64,000 nt of DNA from Croceicoccus sp. (GTDB taxonomy: Bacteria; Pseudomonadota; Alphaproteobacteria; Sphingomonadales; Sphingomonadaceae): contig NZMY01000013.1 of NCBI GenBank assembly GCA_002694745.1, positions 186,001-250,000 of the forward strand, given 5' to 3'. The notes under the pieces are model-generated. The model made no database searches, was not told the DNA's origin, and worked only from the letters and a program-made list of their open reading frames with translations. A program made the translations under genes and the position numbers. Shown here one piece after another: positions 5,663 through 25,575 of the stretch (position 1 is the first letter of the stretch; each line of letters opens with the position of its first letter).

Positions 5663-6583
5663 TCATCCCGAAATGATCCTGACGGCGGTGGCGGTGGCGG
5701 CCGCCCGCGTTTCGACCCCCAGCTTGATGAATATCTGCTGCAGATGCTTGTTCACCGTGCGCGGGCTGATGCCCAGAATTTCGCTGATCGACCGGTTCGA
5801 TTTGCCATAGCTGACCCACAGCAGCACTTCGGCCTCGCGCTGGGTCAGGCCGCCGTGTTTCTGCAGGCTGGCAATCTCGGCCCCTTCGCGGATCTCGGTC
5901 ATGCGGATCAGCGTCTCGCCGTTCCGATCGGTTTCGACTGCGGCGATCTCGATGTCGAAATCGTCGAACTTGGCGCGGATCGACTGGGCGGGATTAAGCG
6001 GTTCGTGCAGCAGGCGCTGAACCGGCACGGCGATGGCAGAGGGGAGGCGGGGCGCGTCCTCGTTCCATTGCGGATCGACGCGCGACAGCAGCTTGCCCGC
6101 CTGCGGCGTGCACCACAGCACCTTGCCGTCCGCGTCCAGCCCGACGAGGTGCCGGCCCGCCCCGTCCAGCGCAAGGCGCGAGCGATGCGCGATGCGCGCA
6201 TTGTTCAGATGCACGCGGATCCGGGCCAGCAGCTCCTCGATCACGATGGGCTTGCGAATGTAATCGACGCCGCCGGTTTCCAGCGCGGTTATCGCATGTT
6301 CGGATTCGGTCAGCCCGGTCATGAAGATCACGGGCACGAAGGCCATAGCGGGGTCGCGCTTGATCCGGCGCGTGGTCTCGAACCCGCTGAGGCCGGGCAT
6401 CACCGCGTCCATCAGGATCAGGTCGGGCGTGACCTCTGCCAGAAGTTCGATGGCCGCCTCGCCGCTGGTGGCGACCAGCGCGGTCATGCCTTCGTGTTCC
6501 AGCGTGTCGACCAGCAGGCTCAGCGAATCCGGCGTGTCGTCGACGACGAGGATGCGGTCCTTGCGGTCTTCTTCAGGCGGCAT
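5663..6583 (-). CDS. Response regulator, REC domain plus LuxR-type HTH
   Basis: The protein has 306 residues. The receiver domain spans about residues 10-125, with acidic pocket D15/D16, phospho-acceptor D59 (ILMDAVMPG) and K111 (YIRKP). A middle segment of about 110 residues has no motif I recognise. The LuxR/FixJ-type HTH is at the C-terminus (LTQREAEVLLWVSYG, ILGISPRTVNKHLQQIF). Its start lies 11 bases inside the histidine kinase gene, indicating translational coupling, so the two form a cognate pair. Its position between sterol desaturase 1 and the guanidine/urea cluster makes those genes and the second desaturase operon plausible targets. Confidence 0.92.
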   Translation of the reverse strand: MPPEEDRKDRILVVDDTPDSLSLLVDTLEHEGMTALVATSGEAAIELLAEVTPDLILMDAVMPGLSGFETTRRIKRDPAMAFVPVIFMTGLTESEHAITALETGGVDYIRKPIVIEELLARIRVHLNNARIAHRSRLALDGAGRHLVGLDADGKVLWCTPQAGKLLSRVDPQWNEDAPRLPSAIAVPVQRLLHEPLNPAQSIRAKFDDFDIEIAAVETDRNGETLIRMTEIREGAEIASLQKHGGLTQREAEVLLWVSYGKSNRSISEILGISPRTVNKHLQQIFIKLGVETRAAATATAVRIISG

Positions 6584-9919: not shown

Positions 9920-12900
9920 GCGCTGCGCCTCAGGGCCAGCATGGGCGTTCCGGGTTGCAGCGACTGCCGTTCCTGCATGTAGAGCGCCGACACCGTGCCG
10001 CTGGCGGGGCTTTCGAACGGGCATTCCATCTTCATGGACTCGATCACCGCAATGATGTCGCCTTCCTCTACCGCATCGCCCGGCTCGACCATCAGCTTCC
10101 ACACGCTACCGCCGAAGGGTGCTTCGATCAGCTCGCTGCCTTCGGGCACTTCGACCGCCGCGACTTCCGCCGCGCCCGCGTCGGCATCGGCCAGATCGCC
10201 GATCCGGTCGAACTCGCCCGAGCGTTCCCATTCGGCGCGCTCTTCATCGAAAGCAGCCTGTCTTGTGGCTTCGAACGCGGCGATGCTTTCGGCGTTTTCC
10301 TTCAGGAAGGCGCGATAATCGGCGAGGCGGAATTCCGAATGCTCGACCTCGATCGAGCGGCGTCCATTCGGGAAATCGCGCCGCCAGTCGGCCAGCTCAT
10401 CCGCGTCGACCTTGAAGAAGCGGATCTGGTCGAAGAAACGCAGCAGCCATGGCTTGCCGTCGACAAAGGCGTCGGTCTGGCGGTGCGTGTTCCACACCTG
10501 GATGGTGCGTCCGAACAGCTGGTAGCCGCCGGGACCTTCCATGCCATAGATGCACATATAGGCCCCGCCGATGCCGACCACGTTTGGCGGCGTCCACGTG
10601 CGGGCGGGGTTGTACTTTGTGGTGACCAGCCGGTGCCGCGGATCGACCGGGGTCGCCACCGGCGCGCCCAGATAGATGTCGCCCAGCCCCAGCACGAGAT
10701 AGCTGGCATCGAAGATCAGGCTTTCGACTGCGTCGGCATCGCGCATGCCGTTGATGCGGCGGATGAATTCGATATTGTCGGGGCACCACGGCGCATCGTC
10801 GCGCACCGCGCCCATGTATTTCTCGATCGTCTCGATGGTCGCCGGATCGCGCCAACTGAGCGGCAGGTGCACGATGCGCGAGGGGATGCGGAAATCCTCG
10901 AGGTCGCCGAGCTTTTCCTCCGCCTCGATCAGCGCGGCCAATGCAGCCTTCTGGTCCAGCGCCTTGCCGTCGAAATGCAATTGCAGCGAGCGGATGCCCG
11001 GCACGATGTCGATCACGCCTGGCAGCTTCAGCCGCTCAAGCTCGGTCATCAAGGCGTGGACGCGAATGCGCAATTCGATGTCGAGGACGATCTCGCCATA
11101 TTCGACGAGGATGTTGCGGTCGCCCTGCTGGCGATAGACCGCGCGCGGGCGGATGCCCTGCTGCGGGATCTCGGCCAGGATCGGCGACAGATCGGCGATA
11201 TCGCGTGTGGCGTGATCACTGCCGAAACGGTCCAGCGGCGCCGCTGCCGCCTCCGCAGCATCCTCGGCGCTGACGGGCACAAAGCGCAGCCGGTCGTCGG
11301 GGGCCAATTGTCCGATCTTCCACCGATCCGCCGCGATCACCGTGAACGGGCAAACGAACCCGCCCAGCGAAGGGCCGTCGGGGCCGAGGATGATCGGCAT
11401 GTCGCCGGTAAAGTCCACCGCGCCGATGGCATAGGGATTGTCGTGGATGTTCGACGGATGCAGCCCTGCTTCGCCGCCGTCCTTGCGCGCCCATTGCGGC
11501 TTTGGCCCGACAAGTCGCACGCCGGTGCGGTTGCTGTTGTAATGGACCTGCCATTCGGCTGCGACGAATTCGGCGATGTCGTCCGGCGTAAAGAAATCGG
11601 GCGCGCCGTGGGGGCCGTAGAGCACCCGCAGTTCCCAGCTTCGCCCGATCTCGGGGAGGGCCAGCGCCGCCGGTTCGGTCGCCGGTTCCTCCGCGCCAAG
11701 ATGCAGCGTGTCGCCCGCCAGCAGCCGCCGCGCGGCATGGCCGCCGAACTGGCCCAGCGCAAAGGTGCTGCGGCTGTCCAGATAGGCCGCGATGTCCAGC
11801 CCGCCCGCGAACAAAATATAGCCGCGAACGCCGCCGCCTGCCGTCCGGCCCATCGCCAGCGTCTGCCCGGCCTCGACCGACAGCACCGTGCCGCGTTCCA
11901 CCGGCTCGCCGTCCAGCTTCGCGCCGAAATCCGCGCCCGTCAGGCAGATGCGGGCCGGCGCGCTGAATTGCAGGGTCGGTCCGCTGACGGTGACCTCCAG
12001 CCCGGCCATGCCTTCCGGATTGCCCAGCATCAGATTGCCCAGACGGAACGAACGGTCGTCCATCGGCCCCGATGGCGGCACGCCCACGTCCCACAGGCCA
12101 AGCCGTCCCGGCCAGTCCTGCACCGTGGTCGCGGTGCCGCCGCTGGTCACGCGAATGCAGTTCGGCTGATAGTTCACGCTCTCCAGCAGCCGGGTCGATA
12201 CCTCGCCGCTGCCGAATTTCTCATTGCGGACCACGTCGCGCAGCCAGCGCAGATTCGTCTCGATCCCGTCGATGCGGCTGACGTCCAGCGCGTCCTGCAT
12301 CGCCGCGATCGCCTCGTCGCGCGTCGGGCGGTGGACGATCAGCTTGGCGATCATCGGATCGTACCAGCTGGTCACCTCATTACCCGCCATGCACCATGTC
12401 TCGACGCGGATGTCGGACGGGAAGTCGACCGCGGTCAGCGCGCCGACCGTGGGGCGATAGTCCAGCGCCGGATCCTCGGCATAGAGCCGCACCTGGATCG
12501 CATGGCCCTGCGCCGCCGGAGGCTCGCGGTCGAGGAAGGTGAAATCGCCCGCCGCGCCGCGGATCATCCATTGGACGAGGTCGACGCCCATGACTTCCTC
12601 GGTCACGCCGTGTTCGACCTGAAGGCGGGTGTTCATCTCGAGGAAGAAGAATTCCTCGCGCTCGGCATCGAACAGGAATTCGACCGTGCCCGCGGACAGG
12701 TAACGCGCCGCTTCGCCCAGACGCACAGCCGCGGCGATCAGCTCGGCGCGCTTGGCATCGGACAGGCGAGGGGCGGGGGCTTCCTCGACAACTTTCTGGT
12801 TGCGGCGCTGCAAGGAACAATCGCGTTCGCCCAGCGGCATGATGCGGCCTTGGCCGTCGCCGAAGATCTGCACCTCGATATGGCGCGCGCGGCCGATATA

Positions 12901-13503
12901 GCGTTCGAGGAAGACCCCCGCATCGCCGAAATTGCCCGCGCCAAGCCGCGCGACGACCGCGAAACCGTCGCGCACGGCGGCCTCGTCCTCGCAGATGCGC
13001 ATGCCGATGCCGCCGCCGCCGGCCGTGGCCTTGAGCATGACCGGAAAGCCGATCTTGCGCGCCGCCTCGACCGCTTCCGCCTCGTCCGTCAGCAGGCCGG
13101 TGCCGGGGGCGAGGGGGACGCCGTGTTCCTCCGCCAGAGCGCGGGCGCTGTGCTTCAGGCCGAAGATGTTGATGTTTTCGGGCGTGGGGCCGACGAACAC
13201 GATGCCGGCGGCCGCGCAGGCCTCGGCAAACTCGGTATTCTCGGCCAGAAAGCCGTAACCGGGATGGATCGCGCCCGCGCCGCTTTCCTTCGCGGCTGCA
13301 AGGATCGCGGGAATGTTGAGATAGCTTTCCGCCGCCGGGGCGGGGCCGATGCAGATCGCGCTGTCGGCCTCGGACACATGCAGCGATCCCGCATCCGCCT
13401 CGGAATAGACCGCGACCGAGCGAAGCCCCATGCGGCGCAGCGTGCGGATGATCCGGGTGGCGATGGCCCCCCGGTTCGCCACGAGAACGGTGTCAAAGCT
13501 CAT
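9916..13503 (-). CDS. Biotin-dependent urea carboxylase, probably a guanidine carboxylase
   Basis: The protein has 1195 residues. In order it contains a biotin carboxylase domain (about 1-450, beginning DTVLVANRGAIATRI), the KipI/KipA-like carboxyltransferase halves (about 460-1090), and a biotinyl domain at the C-terminus with ESMKME, biotin attachment at K1158. Family enzymes carboxylate urea to allophanate, or guanidine to carboxyguanidine, using ATP and bicarbonate. The two DUF1989 proteins encoded directly upstream occur with the guanidine-preferring enzymes. I could not align the substrate-selecting residue by eye. The gene overlaps its neighbours on both sides by ATGA, so expression is tightly coupled. 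Confidence 0.93.
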   Translation of the reverse strand: MSFDTVLVANRGAIATRIIRTLRRMGLRSVAVYSEADAGSLHVSEADSAICIGPAPAAESYLNIPAILAAAKESGAGAIHPGYGFLAENTEFAEACAAAGIVFVGPTPENINIFGLKHSARALAEEHGVPLAPGTGLLTDEAEAVEAARKIGFPVMLKATAGGGGIGMRICEDEAAVRDGFAVVARLGAGNFGDAGVFLERYIGRARHIEVQIFGDGQGRIMPLGERDCSLQRRNQKVVEEAPAPRLSDAKRAELIAAAVRLGEAARYLSAGTVEFLFDAEREEFFFLEMNTRLQVEHGVTEEVMGVDLVQWMIRGAAGDFTFLDREPPAAQGHAIQVRLYAEDPALDYRPTVGALTAVDFPSDIRVETWCMAGNEVTSWYDPMIAKLIVHRPTRDEAIAAMQDALDVSRIDGIETNLRWLRDVVRNEKFGSGEVSTRLLESVNYQPNCIRVTSGGTATTVQDWPGRLGLWDVGVPPSGPMDDRSFRLGNLMLGNPEGMAGLEVTVSGPTLQFSAPARICLTGADFGAKLDGEPVERGTVLSVEAGQTLAMGRTAGGGVRGYILFAGGLDIAAYLDSRSTFALGQFGGHAARRLLAGDTLHLGAEEPATEPAALALPEIGRSWELRVLYGPHGAPDFFTPDDIAEFVAAEWQVHYNSNRTGVRLVGPKPQWARKDGGEAGLHPSNIHDNPYAIGAVDFTGDMPIILGPDGPSLGGFVCPFTVIAADRWKIGQLAPDDRLRFVPVSAEDAAEAAAAPLDRFGSDHATRDIADLSPILAEIPQQGIRPRAVYRQQGDRNILVEYGEIVLDIELRIRVHALMTELERLKLPGVIDIVPGIRSLQLHFDGKALDQKAALAALIEAEEKLGDLEDFRIPSRIVHLPLSWRDPATIETIEKYMGAVRDDAPWCPDNIEFIRRINGMRDADAVESLIFDASYLVLGLGDIYLGAPVATPVDPRHRLVTTKYNPARTWTPPNVVGIGGAYMCIYGMEGPGGYQLFGRTIQVWNTHRQTDAFVDGKPWLLRFFDQIRFFKVDADELADWRRDFPNGRRSIEVEHSEFRLADYRAFLKENAESIAAFEATRQAAFDEERAEWERSGEFDRIGDLADADAGAAEVAAVEVPEGSELIEAPFGGSVWKLMVEPGDAVEEGDIIAVIESMKMECPFESPASGTVSALYMQERQSLQPGTPMLALRRSA

Positions 13504-14135
13504 GCGGTCACGATCATCCGGACAGGAGTGGGGTTGAAGGCGTTGCAGGGATTGTTGATCTGCGGGCAGTTGGACACCACCACGATCACGTCCATCTCGG
13601 CGCGCAGGTCGACGGTCAGGCCGGGGGCGGAAATGCCGTCGACGATGCCCAGCGACCCGTCTTCCTCGACCGGGACGTTCATGAAGAAATTGATGTTGGG
13701 CACCATGTCGCGCTTGCCCCGGCCTTCGGTGAGGTTAGCCTCCAGGAAATTCTCGACACAGGCGTGCTGCGCCTTGGTGTGGTGGCCGTAACGCAGCGTG
13801 TTGGATTCGCACGAACACGCGCCGCCGATGGTGTCGTGATATTCGACCGAGGTGTCGGTGATGGTCATCATCGGCCGCCCCTCGTTCGAGAGCAGCACCG
13901 ATCCGGTCTTGAGGAACAGGTTCCCCTGCGCCGCGACCGTGTCCTGCGCACTGTAACGCTCGACATCGTCGGCGGCTGAATAGATCAGGAAATCGACGGC
14001 CTGATTGCCCTCCACATCCACGACGCGCAGGGTCTGGCCCTTGGCGACATGGTGCAGCCATGGTGCGCGGGCGGGCACGATCTCGTCATGCACGATGCTG
14101 CCGGAAAGGCCGGTAGTGGCCGGATCTGTGGTCAT
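13500..14135 (-). CDS. DUF1989 urea carboxylase-associated protein 2 (carboxyguanidine deiminase subunit)
   Basis: The protein has 211 residues and belongs to the DUF1989/urea-amidolyase-associated family. Family hallmarks seen are DVEGNQAVDFLIYSA, a Cys-bearing GGACSCESNTLRYG, and NCPQINNPCNAFNPTPVRM at the end. In Pseudomonas, the two DUF1989 proteins form the heteromeric carboxyguanidine deiminase CgdAB, which converts carboxyguanidine to allophanate and ammonia. The start chosen has AAAGGG just upstream; a 38-residue N-terminal extension in frame is excluded because it overlaps the partner gene. The stop overlaps the carboxylase start. Confidence 0.88.
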   Translation of the reverse strand: MTTDPATTGLSGSIVHDEIVPARAPWLHHVAKGQTLRVVDVEGNQAVDFLIYSAADDVERYSAQDTVAAQGNLFLKTGSVLLSNEGRPMMTITDTSVEYHDTIGGACSCESNTLRYGHHTKAQHACVENFLEANLTEGRGKRDMVPNINFFMNVPVEEDGSLGIVDGISAPGLTVDLRAEMDVIVVVSNCPQINNPCNAFNPTPVRMIVTA

Positions 14136-14149
14136 GTGTCGGCCCTTTC

Positions 14150-14974
14150 TCAGCGGCGGTAGTAGTCTTCGACATTCTCGAACGCGCGCAGCCCCTCGGG
14201 CGAGGCGTTGCGCGCGGCGTCGTCCTCCGGCGTGACCGGCCCGCGCCATGCGGTGGCGCGCAGGCGGGTGACGCTATAGTCATCGCGCGGATCCATCACG
14301 TGCGGGCAATTGGCGATCACGACGATCACGTCCATCTCGGCGCGCAGGATCACGCTGCGGCCAGAATCGAACGGGCCGACCTGCGGAATGATGGTGCCGT
14401 CCTTCTCGATCCGCGTGCCCTTGAACAGGTTGACGCAGGGGTGGACGTCGCGGCGCCGCAGCCCGTGCTTGGCCGAACCCAACAGCAAACGGTCGCGCCC
14501 GTTGGGAAAGGCCCCGCTGTTGCGGCCCTCGCCATATTTGGCGGTGTTGGTGGCCGCGTTGGAGGTGCCGCAGAACGTGTCATGCGTGCCCGCGTCGTCG
14601 TGCACGATGCTCATCAGCACGCGGCCCATGTCGGACAGCAGCAGCTTGTTTTCGCCCAGATAGGCGTTCCACTGGACCTTCACCGTGTCGGCGACGTTCA
14701 GCCGCTCGGTCGGCATGTCGGCGTTATAGATCAGCAGCGAGGCGCAGGCATCGCCCTCCAGATCGATCAGCCGCAGCCGCGATCCGCGCGACAGGCGCCG
14801 CGTGGCATAGCCGCCCGCCGCGATGGTCTCTTCCCACACCAGATCGTCCGCCGACACGCCCTTGGGCAGATCGTCCGCCACGGGGGGAAGCACCGGCATG
14901 GCCTCGGCCTTGGTGCCGGCCATGGCGCGGGCATGGTCGCGCGCCGCCATCGGATCGGCCAGATTGGTCGTCAT
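14150..14974 (-). CDS. DUF1989 urea carboxylase-associated protein 1 (carboxyguanidine deiminase subunit)
   Basis: The protein has 274 residues and is a paralogue of the next gene. Visible family motifs are DLEGDACASLLIYNAD, HDTFCGTSNAATN, the PNGRDRLLLG run and HPCVNLFKG, ending with NCPHVMDPRDDYSVT. The Cys and His residues in these blocks are probable metal or catalytic residues, judging from conservation rather than structure. It is the presumed second subunit of the deiminase between the carboxylase and the hydrolase in guanidine breakdown. The start overlaps the regulator stop (ATGA) and has GAGGG upstream. Confidence 0.88.
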   Translation of the reverse strand: MTTNLADPMAARDHARAMAGTKAEAMPVLPPVADDLPKGVSADDLVWEETIAAGGYATRRLSRGSRLRLIDLEGDACASLLIYNADMPTERLNVADTVKVQWNAYLGENKLLLSDMGRVLMSIVHDDAGTHDTFCGTSNAATNTAKYGEGRNSGAFPNGRDRLLLGSAKHGLRRRDVHPCVNLFKGTRIEKDGTIIPQVGPFDSGRSVILRAEMDVIVVIANCPHVMDPRDDYSVTRLRATAWRGPVTPEDDAARNASPEGLRAFENVEDYYRR

Positions 14975-15477
14975 GCGGTTTCCCTCTTCTTCGCAGCGCC
15001 CTTGGCCGCACCCTTGGCGGGCGGCTCTTCGCCTTCCAGCTCGTGCAGAGGCGGCAGCAGGGCGGTGGTGGTGACAAGTTGCAGCTGGTTCACGCCGCGA
15101 ATGCCGCGCAGCGCGTCGCACAGTTCCTCGAGCCTGTTGGCAGGGCCCTGCACCAGCAGAACTTCCATCGACTGGTCGTCCTCAAGGAAGACATGCTGCG
15201 AGGAGATGACTTCCTTCAGGTAATCGGCCTGCGTCTCGGACAATTGCTGCCGCGCCTTGCCGCGATTGCCGCGATAGACCAGCGTCACCGTGCCCGCGAG
15301 CATGTCGTCGGGGCGCACGCGCGCCTCATGCTCGGCCAGCGCGTGGCGGATCAGTTCGGCGATCAATTGCGAGCGCGAAGGCAGGCCGCGTTCCTCGACC
15401 ATCATGTCCAGCTGGCGGAACAGTTCGGCCGGCAGGCTCATGCTCAGGCGGGCAAGATTGGTGGGCTCTGAACTCAT
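14971..15477 (-). CDS. NikR-like ribbon-helix-helix regulator lacking nickel ligands
   Basis: The protein has 168 residues. An N-terminal ribbon-helix-helix domain (ARLSMSLPAELFRQLD, then SRSQLIAELIRHAL) is followed by a NikR-type ACT-like ligand domain (about 60-145) and a lysine/alanine-rich tail (AKGAAKGAAKK). By manual alignment to E. coli NikR, only the His87 equivalent (H95) is kept; the positions of His76, His89 and Cys95 are A84, F97 and S103. Nickel sensing by the classical square-planar site is therefore unlikely. Lying inside the carboxylase operon, it probably responds to guanidine, urea or a pathway intermediate. That ligand assignment is inference. Confidence 0.85.
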   Translation of the reverse strand: MSSEPTNLARLSMSLPAELFRQLDMMVEERGLPSRSQLIAELIRHALAEHEARVRPDDMLAGTVTLVYRGNRGKARQQLSETQADYLKEVISSQHVFLEDDQSMEVLLVQGPANRLEELCDALRGIRGVNQLQLVTTTALLPPLHELEGEEPPAKGAAKGAAKKRETA

Positions 15478-15489
15478 GCGAACGGTCTC

Positions 15490-16290
15490 TCAATTATTAT
15501 GATTATTGTCAATCGTAATACTGCCCGCTGAAACCTCGGGCTCGGCATCGGCGGCTTTGGGCGTTTCCTTGCGGGTCAGTTCAAGATCGTAGACCGCCGT
15601 CGCGCCATAGCGGTGAGGCGCGTGCGGATCGTGCCGCCTTTTGTCGAGCGTCAGCACCCGCGTCCCCAGCGAGAACGCCTCCTTGATGTCGTGGGTGACC
15701 ATGATCACGGTCAGCCGGTATTCGTTCCAGAGCTGCGTGATCAGCGCATGCATGTCGGTCCGGATGCCGGGATCGAGCGCGCCGAACGGCTCGTCCAGCA
15801 GCAATATGCGGGGCCGCTTGATCAGCGCCTGCGCGATGGCAAGCCGCTGCTGCATTCCCCCCGACATCTCGGCCGGATAAAGATGCATGCTGTGGTCCAG
15901 CCCGACATGGGCGAGCATCTCTTCCGCCTTCTCCCGCGCGGCGCGTTTCTGCGAACCGAACAGGCGCGAGGAGAAGGGCGCCTGCTTGCATTCCAGCCCG
16001 AACATCACATTGCCCAGCGCCGAGAGATGCGGAAACACCGAATAGCGCTGGAATACCACGCCGCGATCCGGCCCGCATTCGCCCGGCAGCGGCACGTCGT
16101 CGAGCAGGATCGAGCCGCGCGTGGGCGTTTCCTGCCCCAGTATCACGCGCAGCAGGCTGCTCTTGCCCGCGCCCGACGGGCCGATGATCGACACGAACGA
16201 GCCTTCCTCGATATCGAGGGAGACGTTCTCGAGCACGATCTTCTCGCCGTACTCGACCCAGATGTTGCGAAGGCTAAGCAGCGCGCTCAA
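15490..16290 (-). CDS. ABC transporter ATP-binding protein (NrtD/TauB type)
   Basis: The protein has 266 residues. The Walker A motif GPSGAGKSS lies near residues 38-46, followed by the signature EMSGGMQQRLAIAQAL, Walker B ILLLDEPFGALDPG and the switch His in MVTHDIKEAF. The start is a TTG that overlaps the permease stop (TTGA) with GGAG seven bases upstream; no ATG fits. A C-terminal tail of about 30 residues follows the ATPase core. With the permease and lipoprotein that precede it in the operon, it forms the importer that feeds the carboxylase, so its likely cargo is guanidine or urea rather than nitrate. Confidence 0.9.
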   Translation of the reverse strand: MSALLSLRNIWVEYGEKIVLENVSLDIEEGSFVSIIGPSGAGKSSLLRVILGQETPTRGSILLDDVPLPGECGPDRGVVFQRYSVFPHLSALGNVMFGLECKQAPFSSRLFGSQKRAAREKAEEMLAHVGLDHSMHLYPAEMSGGMQQRLAIAQALIKRPRILLLDEPFGALDPGIRTDMHALITQLWNEYRLTVIMVTHDIKEAFSLGTRVLTLDKRRHDPHAPHRYGATAVYDLELTRKETPKAADAEPEVSAGSITIDNNHNN

Positions 16291-17102
16291 TGGTCGGCTC
16301 CATGGGCCCAGGGGAACAGGCGGTTGCTGGCCCAGGTGAGGGCAAGGTCCATAACCACCGCAAGCAGCGCGATCCACGCGACATAGGGCAGGATGATATC
16401 CATCGATAGGTAACGCCGGACGAGGAAAATGCGGTAGCCGAGCCCGATGTCGGCGGCGATGGCCTCGGCGGAAATCAGGAACACCCATGCGGGGCCAAGC
16501 GACAGGCGCACCGCCTGGATCAGCCGCGGCATGGCCTGCGGCAGGGCGACGCGGATCATCACCTGCCAGCTGCTGGCACCCAGCGTCTGCGCCTTGATGA
16601 TCTGTTCGCGCGGCAGCGCCCCGATATGGGCGGCGATGTCGCGCATCATGAAGGGCGCGATGCCCACCACGATCAGCGCTACCTTGGCCGTTTCACCCAG
16701 CCCGAAGGCGATGAAGAGGATCGGCAGCAGCGCAATCGGCGGGATGACCGCAATGCCCGTCACCAGCGGGCCGAACGTGGCGCGCACCGGCGGCAATATC
16801 CCCAGCACCAGCCCGACCAGCAGTGCGGACAGCGTGGAGATCGCAAGCCCGATGCCCAGCCGCGTCAGGCTGGCCAGCGTATCGGCCCAGAACAGATATT
16901 CGCCCGAAAGCTGGTCCGGCTCGGTCACCAGCGAGGCCATCGCCTCGATCATGGCGCCGGGCAGGGGGAGGATCTTGTCGGCGGGATTGACCGCGTGCCG
17001 CGCCCCCGCGACCGCGAGATAAAGCACGATCAGCAGGATGATCGGGATCGCGCCCAACAGCATCCGGTTGCCGCGCCGCGGCCGGCGATTTACCCAGCGC
17101 AT
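16287..17102 (-). CDS. ABC transporter permease (TauC/SsuC/NrtB family)
   Basis: The protein has 271 residues, with an N-terminal basic segment (MRWVNRRPRRGNR), a first membrane helix (AIPIILLIVLYLAV) and about five more. The cytoplasmic coupling loop is seen as AQTLGASSWQVMIRVALPQAMP. The family imports small anions, amines and ureas. It is cotranslated with the ATPase downstream and follows the lipoprotein gene by 67 bases. Confidence 0.9.
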   Translation of the reverse strand: MRWVNRRPRRGNRMLLGAIPIILLIVLYLAVAGARHAVNPADKILPLPGAMIEAMASLVTEPDQLSGEYLFWADTLASLTRLGIGLAISTLSALLVGLVLGILPPVRATFGPLVTGIAVIPPIALLPILFIAFGLGETAKVALIVVGIAPFMMRDIAAHIGALPREQIIKAQTLGASSWQVMIRVALPQAMPRLIQAVRLSLGPAWVFLISAEAIAADIGLGYRIFLVRRYLSMDIILPYVAWIALLAVVMDLALTWASNRLFPWAHGADH

Positions 17103-17169: not shown

Positions 17170-18255
17170 TCACAGGGCGCCTTCGGCGGCCATCTGCATG
17201 TAGGTGTCGTCGAACCTCAGCGTCACATTGTCCGGATCGCCCAGCACGGTGCCGCCGGGGAAGGACATGCCCACCGCATCGGCCGACCGCGCGCCCTGTC
17301 CGAACAGGCCCTGCGCAAAGCTGAAGTCGCGCACGCGCGTCATCGTCTCGACCAGGGCGGGCGAACGGGTCGCCTCGACCGCGGCGGCGGGGTCGGCATA
17401 GAGATAGGTGGTCGACAGCTGGTCATCGAACACGTCGGGCGTGGTGCCCGCCAGCTTGGCCATCGCCGCACGCGCCTCGCGCCCGGCTTCGCTGTCCTGC
17501 TGCATCAGGGCCATCGTTTCGTACCAGATCCCCGCCAGCGCCTTGCCGAGGTTCGGATTGGCCTTCAGCGTCGCGGTATCGACGACCAGCAGATCGATGA
17601 TCTCGCCCGGAATATCGGCGGAGCTGAACACCAGATTGGTATTCGCCGTGTCCCTCATCGTCGCAAGCTGCGGGTTCCATGCCACCGCCGCGGTGATGTC
17701 GGGCGAGGAAAAGGCCCCCGCGATATCGGCATCCGACGTGTTGACGGTATTGACGGCTGTCAACGGCATGCCCTTGGTCTCAAGTCCCCGCGCGAGCAGG
17801 TAATGTGAGACCGAAAGCTCGACCAGATAGACGTCGCGGCCCTGGATCGCGGCCAGATCGTTCGAACCCTTCAGCAGGATCCCGTCATTGCCGTTCGAAT
17901 AATCGCCGACGATGATCGCGGTGGTATCCTTGCCGCCAGCGGCGGGGATGGTCAGCGTATCCATGTTGGTGACGGTTACGCCGTCCAGCTTGCCTGCTGT
18001 GTACTGGTTCACCGACTCGACATAGTCGTTCACCTGCACGAAGTTGATTTCGATCCCGTACTTGTCGGCCCATTTCTTCACGATGCCGGCCTGCTGCGCA
18101 TAGGGCCATGGCATCCATCCGGCATAGATCGACCAGCCGATGTTGAATTCGGTGCGCGGCTCCTGCTGCTCGCTTCCCGAAGGTGAGCAGGCAGCGATCA
18201 GCATCGCGCACAGCATCAGTGCAATTTTTCCCGCGTGGCGGACCCCCATGAGCAT
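17170..18255 (-). CDS. ABC transporter substrate-binding lipoprotein for guanidine/urea
   Basis: The protein has 361 residues. The signal peptide ends in a lipobox (LIAAC|SPSG), so the mature protein is membrane-anchored in the periplasm. The NMT1/NrtA-like fold is recognised from IGWSIYAGWMPWPYA, AGKLDGVTVTNMDTLTIPA and AVAWNPQLATM. This subtype is often annotated as a urea transporter and accompanies DUF1989/carboxylase clusters. The start chosen has AAAGGAG nine bases upstream; ATGs 6 bases downstream and 54 upstream are alternatives. It is first in the operon, downstream of a regulatory region with a strong dyad. Confidence 0.88.
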   Translation of the reverse strand: MLMGVRHAGKIALMLCAMLIAACSPSGSEQQEPRTEFNIGWSIYAGWMPWPYAQQAGIVKKWADKYGIEINFVQVNDYVESVNQYTAGKLDGVTVTNMDTLTIPAAGGKDTTAIIVGDYSNGNDGILLKGSNDLAAIQGRDVYLVELSVSHYLLARGLETKGMPLTAVNTVNTSDADIAGAFSSPDITAAVAWNPQLATMRDTANTNLVFSSADIPGEIIDLLVVDTATLKANPNLGKALAGIWYETMALMQQDSEAGREARAAMAKLAGTTPDVFDDQLSTTYLYADPAAAVEATRSPALVETMTRVRDFSFAQGLFGQGARSADAVGMSFPGGTVLGDPDNVTLRFDDTYMQMAAEGAL

Positions 18256-18465
18256 GATTCGAACTCCTTTCGCGGATGCAGCATTGCGCGAATTGGGCCG
18301 CTTGTCCATGAAGAATTATTACTGTTGATATGTTTTGTAATATCCGTAGGATGATCGTCGCGCGCACCGGAATCGCAAGGTTCCGGCGAGGCGCGACGTC
18401 TGGGAGGGCGTGCATCTAGGGCTATCGTTCACGGCTGCCTTCGGGCGGCGCATGGGGGGAGTGCG
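18256..18465. promoter_or_regulatory. Divergent control region of the guanidine operon and the MBL operon
   Basis: Three structures are visible. TATTAC-N14-GTAATA at 18317-18342 resembles the NikR operator layout (6-base arms, N16 in E. coli) and recurs at 21794-21819. TGCAGCATTGC at 18277-18287, in the minus-strand 5' leader, recurs twice at 21665-21788. A long inverted repeat at 18357-18397 (GTCGCGC with GCGCGAC outside, CACCGGAA with TTCCGGCG inside) could be an RNA hairpin or operator. I found no guanidine-I riboswitch core (no GGUCCGAGAG-like or AAAAGCCCGG-like segment). Confidence 0.55.
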
Positions 18466-19554
18466 ATGCCGCAAAACCAGACCTACCGACCGGAACTGTC
18501 CGGCAATCCGCAATCGTCCACCTCGCGCAGCTATCCCAACGGCAATCCGGAATTGCAGTATAACCGCCCCGGCGTGCGCAATACCGACAGTGCGGTGCCG
18601 CTGCATCCCGCCGCCCCCGTGATACACGACTATGCCAGCGACGGCCCTGCGCCCGGCAATATCGCCTTTCGCTGGGCATATGGATCGAACGTAGCGGCGA
18701 AGAACACCGACCCGCGCGTGCAGGTGATGCAGTATAACGAGGACAGCTTTATCCTGCGCCAGAACATGTGCGTGCATTGGGAAGCGCCGTTCACCTATCT
18801 GCTGTTCGGCAACAAGGGCGCGCTGCTGATAGACAATGGCGCAAGCGCCAACCCCGCGCATTACCCGCTGCGCGAGACGGTCGACGCGATCGTCGCACGC
18901 TGGGCCAAGGCGAGGGGGCGCACCCGCGTGCCGCTGACTCTGGTGATGACATCGGGCGAAGACCACGCGCAGACCAAGGGCCTTGCCCAGTTCGCGGGCC
19001 GCCCCGACACGACCATTGCGCCCACGCCGCTGGCCGCGATGCAGGAATTCCACGGCCTGCTGGGCAAGTGGCCCACCGGCACGTCCAGCATCGATCTGGG
19101 CGACCGCGTGATCCAGGTGATCCCGACGCCCGGCACGCACAAGGACGGGCTCAGCTTCTACGATCCCTATTGCGATTTCCTGTTCACCGGAGACCTGCTG
19201 TTTCCCGGAAAGATCAATATCGGGAACGACCGCGATTTCGTGGCCTCGCTCGAAAGGCTGAAGGCCTTTGCCGACGCCAATCCCGTCAAATATGTGATGG
19301 GCGGCCATATCGACATGATGTTCGTGCCGGGTCAGGCCTATCCGCGCTTCCGCAATTACCGGCCCTATGAACGCGTGCTGGAAATGGAACCGTCCCTGAT
19401 CGCAGAGGCGCTGCAATATGCACGCGAGGTTCAGGGGAGGGACCTGATGCTGATCCGGCCCGACTTCATCCTGCTGAACGGCGTCAGCCCCGATCAGCGA
19501 ACCAATGTGTGGCCCGCCGACGTGCCGCAGATCCGCCCGCCGCATCCGTTCTGA
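18466..19554 (+). CDS. Metallo-beta-lactamase-fold protein with degenerate metal site
   Basis: The protein has 362 residues and no signal peptide. The MBL fold is supported by LLFGNKGALLIDNGA, PGTHKDG, LFTGDLLF and VMGGHID. The usual HxHxDH motif reads TSGEDH, so the first two histidines (zinc site 1) are lost while the Asp-His pair and later His/Asp ligands remain. It is paralogous to the next gene: both share NTDP, ILRQN and EAPF blocks in an N-terminal region before the MBL core. The partner keeps an intact site. It may bind a single metal or act as a non-catalytic partner; the substrate is unknown. Confidence 0.8.
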   Translation: MPQNQTYRPELSGNPQSSTSRSYPNGNPELQYNRPGVRNTDSAVPLHPAAPVIHDYASDGPAPGNIAFRWAYGSNVAAKNTDPRVQVMQYNEDSFILRQNMCVHWEAPFTYLLFGNKGALLIDNGASANPAHYPLRETVDAIVARWAKARGRTRVPLTLVMTSGEDHAQTKGLAQFAGRPDTTIAPTPLAAMQEFHGLLGKWPTGTSSIDLGDRVIQVIPTPGTHKDGLSFYDPYCDFLFTGDLLFPGKINIGNDRDFVASLERLKAFADANPVKYVMGGHIDMMFVPGQAYPRFRNYRPYERVLEMEPSLIAEALQYAREVQGRDLMLIRPDFILLNGVSPDQRTNVWPADVPQIRPPHPF

Positions 19555-19570
19555 ACTGGGGGACACATTC

Positions 19571-20572
19571 ATGGACCGCCGCATGTTTCTTGCCTGCAAT
19601 GCCGTCGCCGCAATCCCGCTGTCGGGCGCGGGCGTGGCCTATGCCCAGTCGCGCGCCGGCAATGGCCCGCCGATCGATTTCACCAGCAACCTGCCCGCCG
19701 CCGGCAGCTTTCCCGACAGATGGATCTTCGGGTCGGAATCCTGCATGGATAACACCGACCCGCCGTGGCAGGTGCATTGGTACAACGACCACACCGCGAT
19801 CCTGCGCCAGAACAAGGCTTACAGCTACGAAGCGCCCTTCGCCCCGCTCTATTTCGGGAACGACCGGATCCTGCTGCTGGACGAGGGTTTCGTGCAGCTG
19901 CGCAACGACTGCGACCTGCGCGGCATCGTCGATGCGACTATCGACGAATGGTGCGAGCGCAATGACAAGAACCCCGAACGTATGGAACTGCTGGTCGCGT
20001 TCAGCCATCTGCATGCCGACCATTATGCGGCGGTCAACCAGTTCGCCGAACGGCCCAACACCCGCTACATGGGCCTGACGCATGAGGAGATGGTCGGCTT
20101 CTGGGGTATGACCAATTTTCCCGAGGAACGCGTGTCGCTCGACCTTGGCGGGCGCGAGATCCTGATCTGGGGGTCGCCCGGCCATGTTGTGTCGGAATTC
20201 GCCTATTACGACAGCTACACCCAGATCCTCTATACCGGCGACATGTTCTATCGCGGTCGCTGCTACATCAGTTTCTGGGAGCCGTGGTTCGACAGCATGC
20301 AGCGGCTGATCGATTTCGTGGACACCCATCCCGTCACCCATGTGATGGGCTGCCATGTCGAGATCAGCAAGGACGACGAGGACTATCCCTACGGCCTCAC
20401 CTACCAGCCGAACGAGGCGCCCGTGCAGATGACGGTGCAGCAATTGCGCGACACGTTCGAATTCGCGAAGACGGTCACCGAACCGGGCATCTATTTCACC
20501 GGCACGGTCTTCCTATGCAACCAGACGCGCAGCATGACCACCATCGACAAATACCCCTATCGCTACAGCTGA
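19571..20572 (+). CDS. Exported metallo-beta-lactamase-fold hydrolase
   Basis: The protein has 333 residues. The N-terminus has a twin-arginine-like signal (MDRRMFLACNAVAA) with cleavage after AYA, so it probably acts in the periplasm. The full ligand set of the fold is present: HLHADH, PGHVV, YTGDMF and MGCHVE. It follows its degenerate paralogue by 16 bases, with GGGGG before the ATG. The tandem layout suggests gene duplication and a shared substrate, perhaps with the enzymatic copy outside and the cytoplasmic copy regulatory. The substrate cannot be inferred. Confidence 0.88.
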   Translation: MDRRMFLACNAVAAIPLSGAGVAYAQSRAGNGPPIDFTSNLPAAGSFPDRWIFGSESCMDNTDPPWQVHWYNDHTAILRQNKAYSYEAPFAPLYFGNDRILLLDEGFVQLRNDCDLRGIVDATIDEWCERNDKNPERMELLVAFSHLHADHYAAVNQFAERPNTRYMGLTHEEMVGFWGMTNFPEERVSLDLGGREILIWGSPGHVVSEFAYYDSYTQILYTGDMFYRGRCYISFWEPWFDSMQRLIDFVDTHPVTHVMGCHVEISKDDEDYPYGLTYQPNEAPVQMTVQQLRDTFEFAKTVTEPGIYFTGTVFLCNQTRSMTTIDKYPYRYS

Positions 20573-20602: not shown

Positions 20603-21535
20603 ATGAAGAAGACTGTCGCAGCGGCACTCGCATCGGCCGCCATCCTGTCATCGGTATCGGCAAGTGCATCCGAACTGGTCGAGCAGGAGTTCAGCGTTCC
20701 CGGTTTCGCCGACTTCCTCGCGATCGATGGCGACACGGTCTGGACCACCAACGACGGCCGGGTCGAGCAATGGTCGACCGAAGGCAAGCTGGCCGCAACC
20801 CCGATGCCGCGCCCCTGCGGGACCATGGCGGTCGGCTATGGATCGCTGTGGGTGGCCAATTGCCCCGACGCCAATCTCTACCGCATCGACCTCGACACCG
20901 CCGAGGTGCAGACGATCATCGAAACCGGCATCGCCAATCCAAAGGGCGAAACCAATGTGGTCGAGGGGGCGGGATCGATCTGGGTCCCCAGCGCCGCCAC
21001 CGGCCAGATCGCGCGCATCGATCCGGCCAGCAACACGGTCATCGCCAGCGTCACGGTCGATCCGGGCACGTTCTACCTCGCCTATGGGTTCGACGCGCTC
21101 TGGGCCGTCAGCAGCGATGGGCAGACCCTGCAGAAGATCGATCCCGCCACCAATGAAGTTGTCGGCAAGGTATCGCTGGGCAAGCAGCCGGGCTTCCTCG
21201 CCGCAGGCGAAGGCGGGGTGTGGGTGCAGGAACAGGGCGACGGCACCGTCGCAAGGGTCGATCCCGAAACGATGGAGCTGGTCGGCCGGATAAAGGTCGG
21301 CGAGAACCTGATCTATGGCGATATCGACGTCGGCGGCGGCGCGGTCTGGCTGCGTACCACCGACGACCAGACTTTCGCCAAGATCGATCCCGCGACCATG
21401 CAGGTCGTCACGCGCGCAGGCGCGGCGGCTGGCAGCGGCGCGCTGCGCTATACCGATGCGGGCATCTGGACGTCGGCGCATGACAACCAAACCCTGTCAT
21501 GGTGGTCCGAACCTGCCGCTGCCGCGGAGGAGTGA
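20603..21535 (+). CDS. Periplasmic beta-propeller protein (YncE/Vgb-like)
   Basis: The protein has 310 residues with a cleavable signal peptide (MKKTVAAALASAA, cut after SASA). It contains repeated propeller blades: the pattern GxxxVWxxN/xxD...ARIDPAT recurs at least six times (for example GSLWVANCPDANLYRIDL, GQIARIDPASNTV, VARVDPETMELVG). The family binds ligands or senses substrates; no active-site motif is seen. An ATG six bases upstream is too close to AGGAG. It ends the operon with the two MBL proteins, directly before a terminator, so it may be the binding partner of the exported hydrolase. Confidence 0.85.
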   Translation: MKKTVAAALASAAILSSVSASASELVEQEFSVPGFADFLAIDGDTVWTTNDGRVEQWSTEGKLAATPMPRPCGTMAVGYGSLWVANCPDANLYRIDLDTAEVQTIIETGIANPKGETNVVEGAGSIWVPSAATGQIARIDPASNTVIASVTVDPGTFYLAYGFDALWAVSSDGQTLQKIDPATNEVVGKVSLGKQPGFLAAGEGGVWVQEQGDGTVARVDPETMELVGRIKVGENLIYGDIDVGGGAVWLRTTDDQTFAKIDPATMQVVTRAGAAAGSGALRYTDAGIWTSAHDNQTLSWWSEPAAAAEE

Positions 21536-21592: not shown

Positions 21593-21918
21593 TTGAGGGT
21601 CCGGCGGCTGGGGAGGGGGAAGGATATAATCTTCCCGCGATTCGCCCCGCTAGGCGGGTAATGTTGCAGCATTGCTACTATCGATGCGCCCGAAATGCCC
21701 TGTTGCCCCGGTCCCGTATCACACGCAAAACAGCGAAAATCCTTGCGGTGCAGACATTTGTTGCCGGACAACGCAGTTGCAGCATTGCTGATTTAATACG
21801 CTTGACGCTTTTGGTAATATCTATACCTTGTCTCTCGTCGCATTAAAGAACGACGCAAAGCCACTGGGCAGAGGAATTTCGACATTGGGCCGTTCGCGGC
21901 CCGATAAGGAGGTTTTCT
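21593..21918 (+). promoter_or_regulatory. Promoter region of the sterol desaturase 2 operon
   Basis: The stretch has no gene. It holds two copies of the 14-base direct repeat GTTGCAGCATTGCT (21663-21676 and 21776-21789) and the dyad TAATAC-N14-GTAATA (21794-21819), both matching elements in the guanidine operon control region. The region from about 21760 to 21840 is AT-richer than its surroundings. A perfect AAGGAGG lies just before the desaturase ATG. Confidence 0.5.
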
Positions 21919-22914
21919 ATGCACCAGCCGCAAGATGGCAGCACGCATCGTTCCTCTGCTTCGCAGGCGGATCCCGCCGCGCAGGCAGCATCGGATGCAG
22001 CGCCCGGCGCGAAGGTGCGGACGACGATCGTCAACCTGATCCCGCCCTTCACCCTTGCCGCCGTCGTCGCCTTCTGGGGTTTCGCCCCCGACGCCTGGGT
22101 AGAGGCACCCTATACGCTCGTCATCGTCGCCGTCGCGATCATGGCGTGGATCCAGGGCCTCGAATTCCTGTTCGAACGGCACGAAGGCTGGCGCATCAAC
22201 CGCCGCGAATTCGCGACCGACGTCTTCTACACCGTGCTGATGTACACCGTGGTCGGCTGGACCGCGACCAAGATCGCGGACGAGCCGCTGATGGCGCTGA
22301 AGGAACGGCTTGGCATCGCCACGCCGTGGCTGATGGAACTGCCCTTCGTGGTGCAGGCGCTGATGGTGATCATGCTGGTCGAATTCGGCCAGTATTGGAT
22401 GCATCGCCTGATGCACAACGTGTATCCGCTGTGGCTGACCCACGCGCCGCACCACCACGTAACACAGCTCAACGCGCTGAAAGGCGCGGTCGGCAACCCG
22501 ATCGAGCTGGTGCTGATCAGCCTCAGCGTCGTCGCGCTGTTCGATTTCAGCCTGGCCGCGATCTTCTGCGCGATCAACATGGGCGGCGTCATCTCGGGCT
22601 TTGCCCATGCCAATGTCCGGTCGAACCCGCCGCTGTTCTACTCATTCCTGTTCACCACGATCCGGCATCACAGCCTGCATCACACGGCGCTCAGCTATGA
22701 GGATACGCGCTGCAACTATGGCAATTCGATCATCGTTTTCGACCGCATCTTCGGCACCTATCGCGACGGCGAATCTGCCATCGTCGGGCAGGACGACCGC
22801 AGGCGTCTGTCGATCTACGAACAATTCATGTTTCCCTTCCAGCCCGTGATCGACCGTTTCAAGGCCGGCCGCGACGAAGGCGGGAAGGACAAGTCAACAC
22901 CCTCGGCGGGTTGA
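21919..22914 (+). CDS. Sterol desaturase / fatty acid hydroxylase superfamily protein (copy 2)
   Basis: The protein has 331 residues, with an Ala/Asp-rich 30-residue cytoplasmic start, then about five membrane helices and the three histidine clusters of di-iron membrane hydroxylases: HRLMH, THAPHHH and HHSLHH. It is the paralogue of the protein at 4464-5462 (matching core from WRINRREF or its equivalent to the FPF block near the end), and the two may act on related lipids. The ribosome-binding site AAGGAGG is ideal. The TonB receptor lies 192 bases downstream in the same direction, with hairpins but no clear terminator between. Confidence 0.9.
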   Translation: MHQPQDGSTHRSSASQADPAAQAASDAAPGAKVRTTIVNLIPPFTLAAVVAFWGFAPDAWVEAPYTLVIVAVAIMAWIQGLEFLFERHEGWRINRREFATDVFYTVLMYTVVGWTATKIADEPLMALKERLGIATPWLMELPFVVQALMVIMLVEFGQYWMHRLMHNVYPLWLTHAPHHHVTQLNALKGAVGNPIELVLISLSVVALFDFSLAAIFCAINMGGVISGFAHANVRSNPPLFYSFLFTTIRHHSLHHTALSYEDTRCNYGNSIIVFDRIFGTYRDGESAIVGQDDRRRLSIYEQFMFPFQPVIDRFKAGRDEGGKDKSTPSAG

Positions 22915-23106: not shown

Positions 23107-25575
23107 ATGAATTATTGCGCGAAACTACGCTTGGGTCTTCTTTCTGCGACAATGCTGACGGGCGGTGCCTTCGCAACCCAGGCGGCCGCGCAGGACGCCA
23201 TGGATGCGCCGACCGAAACCGCGATGATCGAGGACGAGAACGCGATCATCGTCACCGGCACCCGCCGCAGCACGACCATCCAGGACACGCCCATCAACAT
23301 CTCGGCCATCGGCGCGGAGGAAATCGCGGCGCAGCGCATGCAGGACGTGCGCGACATCGCCGACTTCACGCCGGGCATGACCGTGCTCGACACCGGTCCG
23401 GGATCGACCGGCGACATCGTGCTGCGCGGTCTCAGCGCCAGCGACACCGACGATTTCGGGTCGAACTACAACAGCTCGCTCGGCGTCTACATGGGCGAGG
23501 TCCCGCTCTACTTCGACTTCAAGCTGCTCGATCTCGAGCGTGTGGAGACGCTGCTCGGACCGCAGGGCACGCTCTATGGCCTCGGCACGCTGTCGGGTGC
23601 GATCCGCTATATCCCCAACCGCCCCAACACCGACGTGATCGAGGGCGAGGTCCACGGCCGCGGCTATGCCATGTCGCACAGCGACGATTTCGGTTATCAG
23701 GGCGACTTCACCCTCAACATTCCGATCGTGCGCGACCACATCGCCTTCCGCACGGCGACCGGCTATTATTCCGAAGCCGGCTTCATCGATTATCCGCTCA
23801 TCGTGCAGGAACCGGGCATCTCGCTGCCGCAGCCCAGCGGCCCCGATGTCGTCAACCGCGAGGATTATGGCGCCAATCTGCGTCGGGCAAAGGATCTCAA
23901 CTATGAGAAGACCTTCACCAGCCGCAACCAGCTTCTGCTTCAGACCAGCGAGGATCTGAAACTCTTCCTGACCTATGCCTATCAGGAGACGAAGACGGGC
24001 GGCGCGCAGGCCAACAGCAATGGCGTGCTGGGCACCGGCCTCTACGAAAACGCCAGCCGCTTCGAAGAGCCGACCACCCGCGAAGCCCATCTGGCGGCCG
24101 CGGAAGTCAACGCCAATATCGCCGATATCTTCGACGTTGTCGCGACCGGCGCCTATACCGAGGTCAACACCGAAGCCATCGGCGACGTGACCGACCTGCT
24201 GCTCGACCTCGACTATGGCTACGAACTCTATCCCGCTTTCTCGGCCTGGAACGAGTCCGATACCAAGCGCGAGCAGGTCAATGCCGAGATCCGTTTCGTG
24301 TCCACCCACGGCGGACCGCTGAGCTGGGTGCTGGGCGGCTTCTACAACGAGAACAAGTACCAGAGCGACTATGCCGAGCGCACGCCCAACCATCCGTGGG
24401 GCGATCCGGAAACCAATCCGGAATATCTGGAATATGTCAGCTACATCACCTCGAAGGTGACCGAAAAGGCGATCTTCGGCGAAGCCACCATTCGGCCCAT
24501 CGATATCTTCCAGATCACCGGCGGAGCGCGCTATTTCGACTATACGTCGGAAATCGCGGGTGCGGCGGCACTGCCGCTGCTGGGCGATCCGCTCAGCCCG
24601 TATGACCTGCCGGCCAATGGCGGTGAGGGCGGTCAGGACGGTTGGGTTTGGAAGTTCAACAGCTCGATCGACATCACGCCCGACCTTATGCTCTATGGCA
24701 CCTACTCCAAGGGCTATCGCATCGGCGGCCCGAACCGGGTGGCGCCTTGCGATCCCAGCATTCCGCAGGACCCGTCCCAGTATGACGGTCCGCAGGTTAT
24801 CTGCGCACTGCCGAACGAGATCCAGTACGGTCCCGACACGACCAAGAATATCGAGATCGGCATCCGCAGCCAGCTGTTCGACCGGATGCTGACGCTGAAC
24901 TTCAACGTGTTCAAGATCGACTGGGAAGGTCTGCAGGTCGCATCGGCCACCACCTATGGCGTGACCGGCATCACCGTGAACGCGGGCGCGGCGGAATCGA
25001 AGGGCTTTGAAGGATCGTTCCAGTTCCGCCCGATCCCCGAGCTGTCGATTCAGGGCACCTATTCCTACACCGATGCCGAGCTGACCGAGGACGTGGACTC
25101 GAACGGCGACGGCGTGGTCGACTCGCTGGACGGCCTTATCCCGGTCAACGATCCTCCGGGCGTCTATCCCAGCTCGCCGATCAAGCTGATCGCGCGTGAC
25201 GGGGACCGGCTGCCGGGTTCGCCCCGGAACTCGGGCACGCTTGGGGCGACCTATATCATGCCGATGGGCGAGGGCGATATCCGGGCGAACTGGACCGCGG
25301 TCTATCGCGGCAATGTCGTCACCCGCCTCGGTTGGGACCGCGCCTATGGCGACAAGCTGCCCAGCTTCGTCACCCACCGCGCCACGATCGGCTATGAAAC
25401 CGACGTGTTCAGCGTGAACCTGTTCGCGGACAATATCTTCGACAATTACGCCGGGGTGTCGGTCGCCAACGACCGTTCGCGCATCGGCCTGAACGACGGC
25501 GTGCAATTACGCTATTACCGCAATGTCGTGCTCAACCCGCGCACCGTGGGTGTCGAGGGCCGTTTCCGCTTCTGA
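23107..25575 (+). CDS. TonB-dependent outer-membrane receptor
   Basis: The protein has 822 residues: a signal peptide cut after QAAA|Q, a TonB-box-like IIVTGTRR, a plug domain (INISAIGAEEI, VLRGLSA, VETLLGPQGTLYGLGT) and a 22-strand barrel ending in an aromatic residue (VEGRFRF). Sphingomonad receptors of this type take up diverse ligands from siderophores to sugars and aromatics, and the ligand is not predictable here. Its place after sterol desaturase 2, downstream of a promoter resembling the guanidine operon's, suggests it brings in the substrate of this locus. Confidence 0.93.
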   Translation: MNYCAKLRLGLLSATMLTGGAFATQAAAQDAMDAPTETAMIEDENAIIVTGTRRSTTIQDTPINISAIGAEEIAAQRMQDVRDIADFTPGMTVLDTGPGSTGDIVLRGLSASDTDDFGSNYNSSLGVYMGEVPLYFDFKLLDLERVETLLGPQGTLYGLGTLSGAIRYIPNRPNTDVIEGEVHGRGYAMSHSDDFGYQGDFTLNIPIVRDHIAFRTATGYYSEAGFIDYPLIVQEPGISLPQPSGPDVVNREDYGANLRRAKDLNYEKTFTSRNQLLLQTSEDLKLFLTYAYQETKTGGAQANSNGVLGTGLYENASRFEEPTTREAHLAAAEVNANIADIFDVVATGAYTEVNTEAIGDVTDLLLDLDYGYELYPAFSAWNESDTKREQVNAEIRFVSTHGGPLSWVLGGFYNENKYQSDYAERTPNHPWGDPETNPEYLEYVSYITSKVTEKAIFGEATIRPIDIFQITGGARYFDYTSEIAGAAALPLLGDPLSPYDLPANGGEGGQDGWVWKFNSSIDITPDLMLYGTYSKGYRIGGPNRVAPCDPSIPQDPSQYDGPQVICALPNEIQYGPDTTKNIEIGIRSQLFDRMLTLNFNVFKIDWEGLQVASATTYGVTGITVNAGAAESKGFEGSFQFRPIPELSIQGTYSYTDAELTEDVDSNGDGVVDSLDGLIPVNDPPGVYPSSPIKLIARDGDRLPGSPRNSGTLGATYIMPMGEGDIRANWTAVYRGNVVTRLGWDRAYGDKLPSFVTHRATIGYETDVFSVNLFADNIFDNYAGVSVANDRSRIGLNDGVQLRYYRNVVLNPRTVGVEGRFRF

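Follow-up and report, generated by a model that had tools for sequence, protein, structure and literature searches.

The window, a stretch of 64,000 nucleotides from Croceicoccus sp. (contig NZMY01000013.1), contains a run of minus-strand genes that encode an allophanate hydrolase (8153..9919; TIGR02713, over the cut-off), a predicted guanidine carboxylase annotated as urea carboxylase (9916..13503; TIGR02712 and alignment), UAAP2 and UAAP1, both of the carboxyguanidine hydrolase subunit type (13500..14135, TIGR03424, and 14150..14977, TIGR03425, each over the cut-off), and a NikR-like regulator (14971..15477) composed of a ribbon-helix-helix domain and NikR_C, in which three of the four nickel ligands are missing. 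On the same strand follow the ATPase (15490..16488; Pfam ABC_tran), the permease (16287..17102; Pfam BPD_transp_1), and the substrate-binding protein (17170..18309; TIGR03427, 530.5 bits, over the cut-off) of an ABC importer; the start codons of the ATPase and of the substrate-binding protein are uncertain. The plus strand encodes two MBL-fold proteins, MBL1 (18466..19554) and MBL2 (19571..20572; Pfam Lactamase_B in both), a beta-propeller protein (20603..21535; Pfam DUF6923 and an NCBIfam beta-propeller repeat), sterol desaturase 2 of the fatty acid hydroxylase superfamily (21919..22914; Pfam FA_hydroxylase), and a TonB-dependent receptor (23107..25575; Pfam TonB_dep_Rec_b-barrel and Plug). 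Sterol desaturase 1 (4464-5462) and a LuxR-type response regulator (5663-6583) are also present in the window.

The core of the minus-strand operon is predicted to constitute a guanidine carboxylase pathway. Aspartate 697 of the carboxylase aligns opposite N1330 of yeast urea amidolyase, which we take to be the position that distinguishes the two kinds of enzyme. Aspartate is characteristic of guanidine carboxylases and asparagine of urea carboxylases (PMC12186494). The aspartate occurs in all 30 carboxylase loci read (L107 by tblastn; L097, whose carboxylase stretch was not included, and L115-L117, which are without a carboxylase, are left out of this count), as well as in Asticcacaulis and in G478, a genome from another family of the same class.

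Three copies of a dyad with six-base arms and a 14-base spacer are located among these genes. Putative operator 2 (18317..18342, no strand assigned; TATTACTGTTGATATGTTTTGTAATA) is an exact TATTAC-N14-GTAATA, followed by TC, and sits between the divergent genes of the importer substrate-binding protein (minus strand) and MBL1 (plus strand). Putative operator 3 (21794..21819, plus strand; TAATACGCTTGACGCTTTTGGTAATA) reads TAATAC-N14-GTAATA, is likewise followed by TC, and lies upstream of sterol desaturase 2. Both dyads, with the trailing TC, are present where the original prediction had placed them, and an independent recount reproduced their identity at 20 of 28 positions, including seven of the 14 spacer positions. 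A further site, absent from that prediction, is putative operator 1 (15495..15520, minus strand; TATTACGATTGACAATAATCATAATA), which has one mismatch and lies inside the ABC ATPase gene at its 3' end, 17 bp ahead of the NikR-like start codon. Judged from sequence only, the centres of the hexamer arms are 20 bp apart, which corresponds to two helical turns.

Operator 3 overlaps a candidate promoter. A -35-like TTGAC (21802-21806) is inside the dyad, and a candidate -10 region, TCTATACC (21820-21827), directly follows it; the arrangement at this site (21794), TTGACG, then 14 bases, then TATACC, fits what we take to be the alphaproteobacterial promoter form. For sterol desaturase 1 of the window, no site is claimed, because the sole upstream candidate, at 5536, has four mismatches; its relatives in several genomes do have one-mismatch sites upstream. 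The match to the importer gene starts, in many relatives, about 7 bp from the operator (18303-18342 in the window), so that the importer mRNA may be leaderless or nearly so.

The dyad is rare in its own genome. Shuffling of the window gives an expectation of 0.02 matches at two or fewer mismatches, against three observed. The whole genome (4,023,093 bases) has three places at one or no mismatch, all in the window and within 6,325 bases, and 17 further places with two mismatches, all on other contigs. These two-mismatch matches carry no weight alone, because a reversed control pattern is commoner at that level (47 matches per strand) than the dyad pattern (20). As the search pattern was derived from two of the three window sites, the third site is the sole independent draw, and a position no more than 2.9 kb from the first has a probability of approximately 0.0014; the comparative tests (orthologues, co-occurrence, and spacers) are independent of this figure. 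A genome-wide motif search had been proposed in the original prediction, and the sites it returned are neither random nor confined to non-promoter places.

The dyad is also conserved in position and in company. In a family sample of 199 genomes, MBL1 was detected at E ≤1e-60 in 18, the window's own genome included, and an exact dyad with varying spacer letters precedes it in 15 of the 17 relatives; as for the two misses, G028 is without the NikR-like gene, and G045 has its site placed before the importer instead. The NikR-like gene is present in 26 of the 199 genomes (E ≤1e-10) and the pattern TAWTAC-N14-GTAATA in 33, that is, in all 26 genomes with the gene versus seven of the 173 without it (Fisher 1.6e-26, uncorrected for ancestry; the counts overstate independence because the genomes are kin). 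The reversed control pattern occurs in 57 of the 199 genomes, distributed by hand count between eight of the 26 NikR-positive ones and 49 of the 173 others, and therefore does not track the NikR-like gene. Guanidine carboxylase is encoded in 31 of the 199 genomes, among them all 26 NikR-positive ones. The five carboxylase-positive genomes without the NikR-like gene contain no exact pattern genome-wide, and no site at one or no mismatch was found in the 18-20 kb fetched for their operons (L118-L122).

A second collection comprised the best 80 of 278 NikR-like loci, picked by similarity; it overlaps with the family sample, because some loci come from the same genomes (e.g., L130 and L091). With the spacer set to 14, 78 of these best 80 of 278 loci have exact sites (144 in total), and all 80 have sites when up to one mismatch is allowed (232 in total). 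Spacers of 6-13 and 15-22 combined yield a single exact site there, at spacer 15, and six permuted-arm controls yield no exact site and one at one mismatch. Still among the best 80 of 278, the sites were assigned to the importer substrate-binding gene (96), the nikR-like gene (81), sterol desaturase 2 (42), MBL1 (36), the TonB receptor (24), the beta-propeller gene (15), sterol desaturase 1 (12), and to no gene (5), with sites between two genes counted for both and some nikR assignments up to 430 bp off. When the sites were listed by hand for 26 NikR-like loci, a nikR-proximal site was present in 20 and missing in six, and the operator 3 class of site was present in 18. Sites recur ahead of the same genes in other genera. 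The tetranucleotide TTGA occupies operator positions 9-12 in all 50 unique nikR-proximal sites and in 48 of 57 unique sites of the sterol-desaturase/TonB/propeller class; MBL-class unique sites have TTGA in 10 of 32 cases and TTG in 32 of 32, and importer-only sites have TTGA in none of 41 (all from the best 80 of 278 loci).

The family relationship of the NikR-like protein is clear from its domains. It matches Pfam NikR_C with 73.9 bits (cut-off 22) and RHH_1 with 25.7 bits (cut-off 20.5), and five NCBIfam NikR models match it, each below the cut-off. The closest NikR structure by sequence is 2bj1 (E 6.8e-24); other matches include 2wvc (E 1.3e-11) and 2ca9 (E 1.2e-10) from H. pylori and 1q5v (E 1.6e-07) from E. 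coli. A monomer model of modest quality (mean pLDDT 72.2, pTM 0.47) has NikR entries as its top PDB matches (2bj3, E 8.6e-11), and Foldseek superposes it on NikR C-domains with rmsd 1.2-1.8. Its N-terminal strand appears as a helix, as can occur in a domain needing its dimer partner, and the model thus says little on contacts with DNA or ligand.

The nickel site, by comparison, is largely dismantled. In an alignment with the NikR proteins of P. horikoshii, for which we assumed the ligand numbering, and of H. pylori, the ligand positions 84, 95, 97, and 103 of the NikR-like protein read A, H, F, and S. The corresponding nickel ligands of H. pylori NikR are H88, H99, H101, and C107 (PMC9860126). 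The alignment gives substitutions, so a deletion at the nickel site is ruled out. All 27 aligned proteins have H95, F97, and S103, and none has a histidine at position 84; the same three residues are found in 80 of 80 loci (best 80 of 278), with a histidine at 84 once. Three of the four ligands are accordingly missing in 27 of 27 proteins and in 79 of the best 80 of 278, the remaining one missing two. In G478, the ligand positions read R, H, H, and T, i.e., two of four are kept. Owing to the absence of three of the four ligands, the NikR-like protein should not be named a nickel sensor, and nickel is unlikely to be its signal.

Among 385 genomes of the class, 16 encode a NikR_C protein, and the window genome has one such protein. 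Three of the 16 (G000, G014, and G478) are linked to the pathway and have sites. In the loci of approximately 3 kb around the other 13, neither UAAP, carboxylase, importer binding protein, or allophanate hydrolase nor any site at two or fewer mismatches was found, and these 13 proteins, read by eye, retain all four ligands. Eight NikR loci from a phylum sample gave the same outcome; one of them, L225, has a distant generic ABC ATPase nearby. Altogether, all four nickel ligands are retained in each of the 20 distinct NikR proteins examined that are not linked to the operon (13 plus eight minus one duplicate, L228 being the same protein as L214), with the first histidine of L230 and L231, both from one genome, aligning only with a one-residue gap.

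Related loci are found at some distance from Croceicoccus. In Asticcacaulis excentricus CB 48, which belongs to a different order (Caulobacterales), plasmid pASTEX01 encodes a NikR-like protein with 62% identity, together with a divergent importer, UAAP1/2, carboxylase, and allophanate hydrolase; an exact dyad is located between the NikR-like gene and the importer. G478 has a NikR-like gene 43% identical, the same divergent layout, and a one-mismatch site. Much closer, a Croceicoccus MAG (L127) and a contig titled Candidatus Poribacteria (L126) encode NikR-like proteins with 97% and 100% identity, respectively, to that of the window; the second contig probably comes from a sphingomonad and is either mislabelled or a contaminant. 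Genome G138 has a second NikR-like gene (L115:11525-12004, ~60% identical), surrounded by relatives of PQQ-dehydrogenase, propeller, sterol-desaturase, and TonB-receptor genes. In the 20 kb seen, the guanidine pathway was not found beside this paralogue, nor was there a site at three or fewer mismatches or an AT-rich dyad close by. Two more exact dyads of G138 are on other contigs (L116:7935-7960 and L117:8284-8309). One is upstream of another TonB-receptor ORF; the ORF behind the second is presumably a methionine aminopeptidase, and that dyad may be due to chance.

Riboswitches were searched for in several sets. The window has no Rfam match, and riboswitch control in it is rejected on this basis. 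The guanidine-I riboswitch (RF00442) was detected in none of the 199 family genomes under stricter filters. The guanidine-II riboswitch (RF01068) was found in one of the four genomes searched, G478, and not in the window's own genome; in G478 it spans L206:15530-15579, ahead of the UAAP1 match (15673), so that a possible double control by this riboswitch and the NikR-like dyad can be considered. No riboswitch was found in the 14 NikR-positive loci scanned, or, with Rfam, in the stretch seen of the five NikR-negative operons (L118-L122). Because the latter also have none, the lack of a riboswitch is no proof of control by the NikR-like protein.

TATTAC-N14-GTAATA very likely serves as operator for the NikR-like protein encoded beside it, probably a repressor that is relieved by guanidine and no longer senses nickel. 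Binding of the dyad by this protein is very probable, a repressing role is probable, and guanidine or a close derivative is, on balance, the expected effector. As in NikR, each of the two half-sites would be occupied by one ribbon-helix-helix dimer of a tetramer. The three operators would define one regulon, comprising the nikR-like gene itself, the ABC importer with MBL1, and sterol desaturase 2 with the TonB receptor, and centred on the guanidine carboxylase operon. Since the -35-like TTGA is inside the operator with the right arm just behind it, the bound protein should block RNA polymerase at promoters holding this element, and repression is the simplest reading where TTGA is present; the argument does not reach every promoter, because TTGA is found in 10/32 MBL-class and 0/41 importer-only sites. 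Guanidine or a close derivative, acting as inducer, would release the NikR-like protein. Canonical NikR needs bound nickel to bind its operator (PMC9860126), and induction by guanidine consequently requires reversed logic. The original prediction that the NikR-like protein could control both promoters is supported by the 26/26 co-occurrence and by the recurrence in other genera; a link between guanidine metabolism and sterol desaturase 2 with its TonB receptor, also suggested there, is consistent with all the sequence tests made.

Other explanations of the dyad differ in how far they depart from this reading. A chance likeness between two AT-rich promoter stretches has a negligible probability: the pattern was indeed picked after the sequence had been read, seven of 173 genomes without the NikR-like gene carry it by chance, and the reversed control is common at two mismatches, but in 78 of the best 80 of 278 loci arms and spacing are kept while the spacer letters vary, other spacers give next to nothing, and exact dyads precede MBL1 in 15 of 17 relatives. 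Genome rarity, MBL1 orthologues, co-occurrence, and the spacer test thus lead to its rejection. Binding by another regulator, to which the NikR-like gene would be merely linked, is very improbable. The LuxR-type protein (5663-6583) would be an obvious example, as 18-19 of the best 80 of 278 loci, and the window too, have a kinase/regulator pair close to the operon; however, L118 and L119 have the histidine kinase and the LuxR-type regulator by the carboxylase operon with no NikR-like gene and no site at one or no mismatch in the 20 kb fetched, for which reason the LuxR regulator is disfavoured and rejected as the binder, and the motif accompanies the NikR-like gene in 26 of 26 genomes.

With the NikR-like protein as the binder, its signal and the sign of its action are less firmly fixed. 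It is rather unlikely, yet deserves some weight, that it answers another signal, such as urea, ammonium or nitrogen state, or a larger guanidino compound, or that it activates. Free guanidine alone would need no TonB receptor, two MBL-fold proteins, or sterol desaturase, and the TTGA element is found in 0/41 importer-only sites (best 80 of 278 loci); on the other hand, the operon core is that of a guanidine carboxylase pathway, and in G478 the same pathway is presumably controlled by a guanidine-II riboswitch. A metal sensor that uses other residues, matching guanidine use to metal supply, seems improbable. The NikR fold, the invariant ligand histidine H95 (27/27 and, among the best 80 of 278, 80/80), and the two ligands kept in G478 would agree with it, whereas the other three ligand positions read F, S, and non-H (H in 1/80, best 80 of 278), and the four ligands are all present in the 20 distinct NikR proteins unlinked to the operon.

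If the NikR-like protein is indeed relieved by guanidine, a metal sensor has swapped its signal with fold and operator geometry retained, and the linked sterol-desaturase, MBL, and TonB genes receive their first functional context. The protein is a testable candidate for a guanidine switch, with an operator, a regulon, and a cultured carrier, Asticcacaulis excentricus CB 48. Searches of the open-access literature found no link between NikR and guanidine carboxylase, NikR and urea amidolyase, or CopG and urea carboxylase; the sole open-access co-mention of NikR, riboswitch, and guanidine concerns CdbA of Myxococcus, and no guanidine transcription factor is named in the abstracts among the matches listed. 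A wider scenario is put forward tentatively, as one that may well prove wrong: a NikR lineage might have exchanged its nickel site for one accepting guanidinium, becoming a protein-based guanidine sensor that replaced riboswitches in sphingomonads, while the TonB receptor, the two MBL-fold proteins, the beta-propeller, and the membrane hydroxylases might import a larger guanidino compound and free guanidine from it. G478, with two ligands and a guanidine-II riboswitch, would then represent an intermediate stage.

The gene content of the operon has a counterpart in Vreelandella boliviensis, where an ABC importer, guanidine carboxylase, CgdA/B-type proteins, and allophanate hydrolase are encoded together (PMC12508155); unlike the window, which is without an Rfam match, that operon is described as being under guanidine-I and -II riboswitches (PMC12508155). 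For the dyad, the original prediction had pointed to the E. coli NikR operator, written there as GTATGA-N16-TCATAC and elsewhere as GTATGAT-N13/14-ATCATAC (PMC545781). This likeness holds for the short arms of six to seven bases and the wide spacer, but not for the arm sequence, and E. coli NikR is just a distant relative. A closer one in sequence is H. pylori NikR, the consensus of which, TRTTA-N15-TAWTA with two-turn half-site spacing (PMC5385501), shares the AT-rich arms and the 20 nt between half-site centres; it has a square-planar nickel site, whereas the NikR-like protein keeps one of four ligands. The nearest operator that we found in published sources is the delta-proteobacterial NikR signal, GTGTTAC-N13/14-GTAACAC (PMC545781), likewise a 26-28 bp inverted repeat that stands before genes near nikR. 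Its inner part, TTAC-N14-GTAA, is identical to that of the window dyad, and the outer arm is GTG there and TA here. The delta-proteobacterial NikR controls nickel transport (PMC545781), whereas its counterpart in the window, with its ligands lost, would control guanidine and uptake genes.
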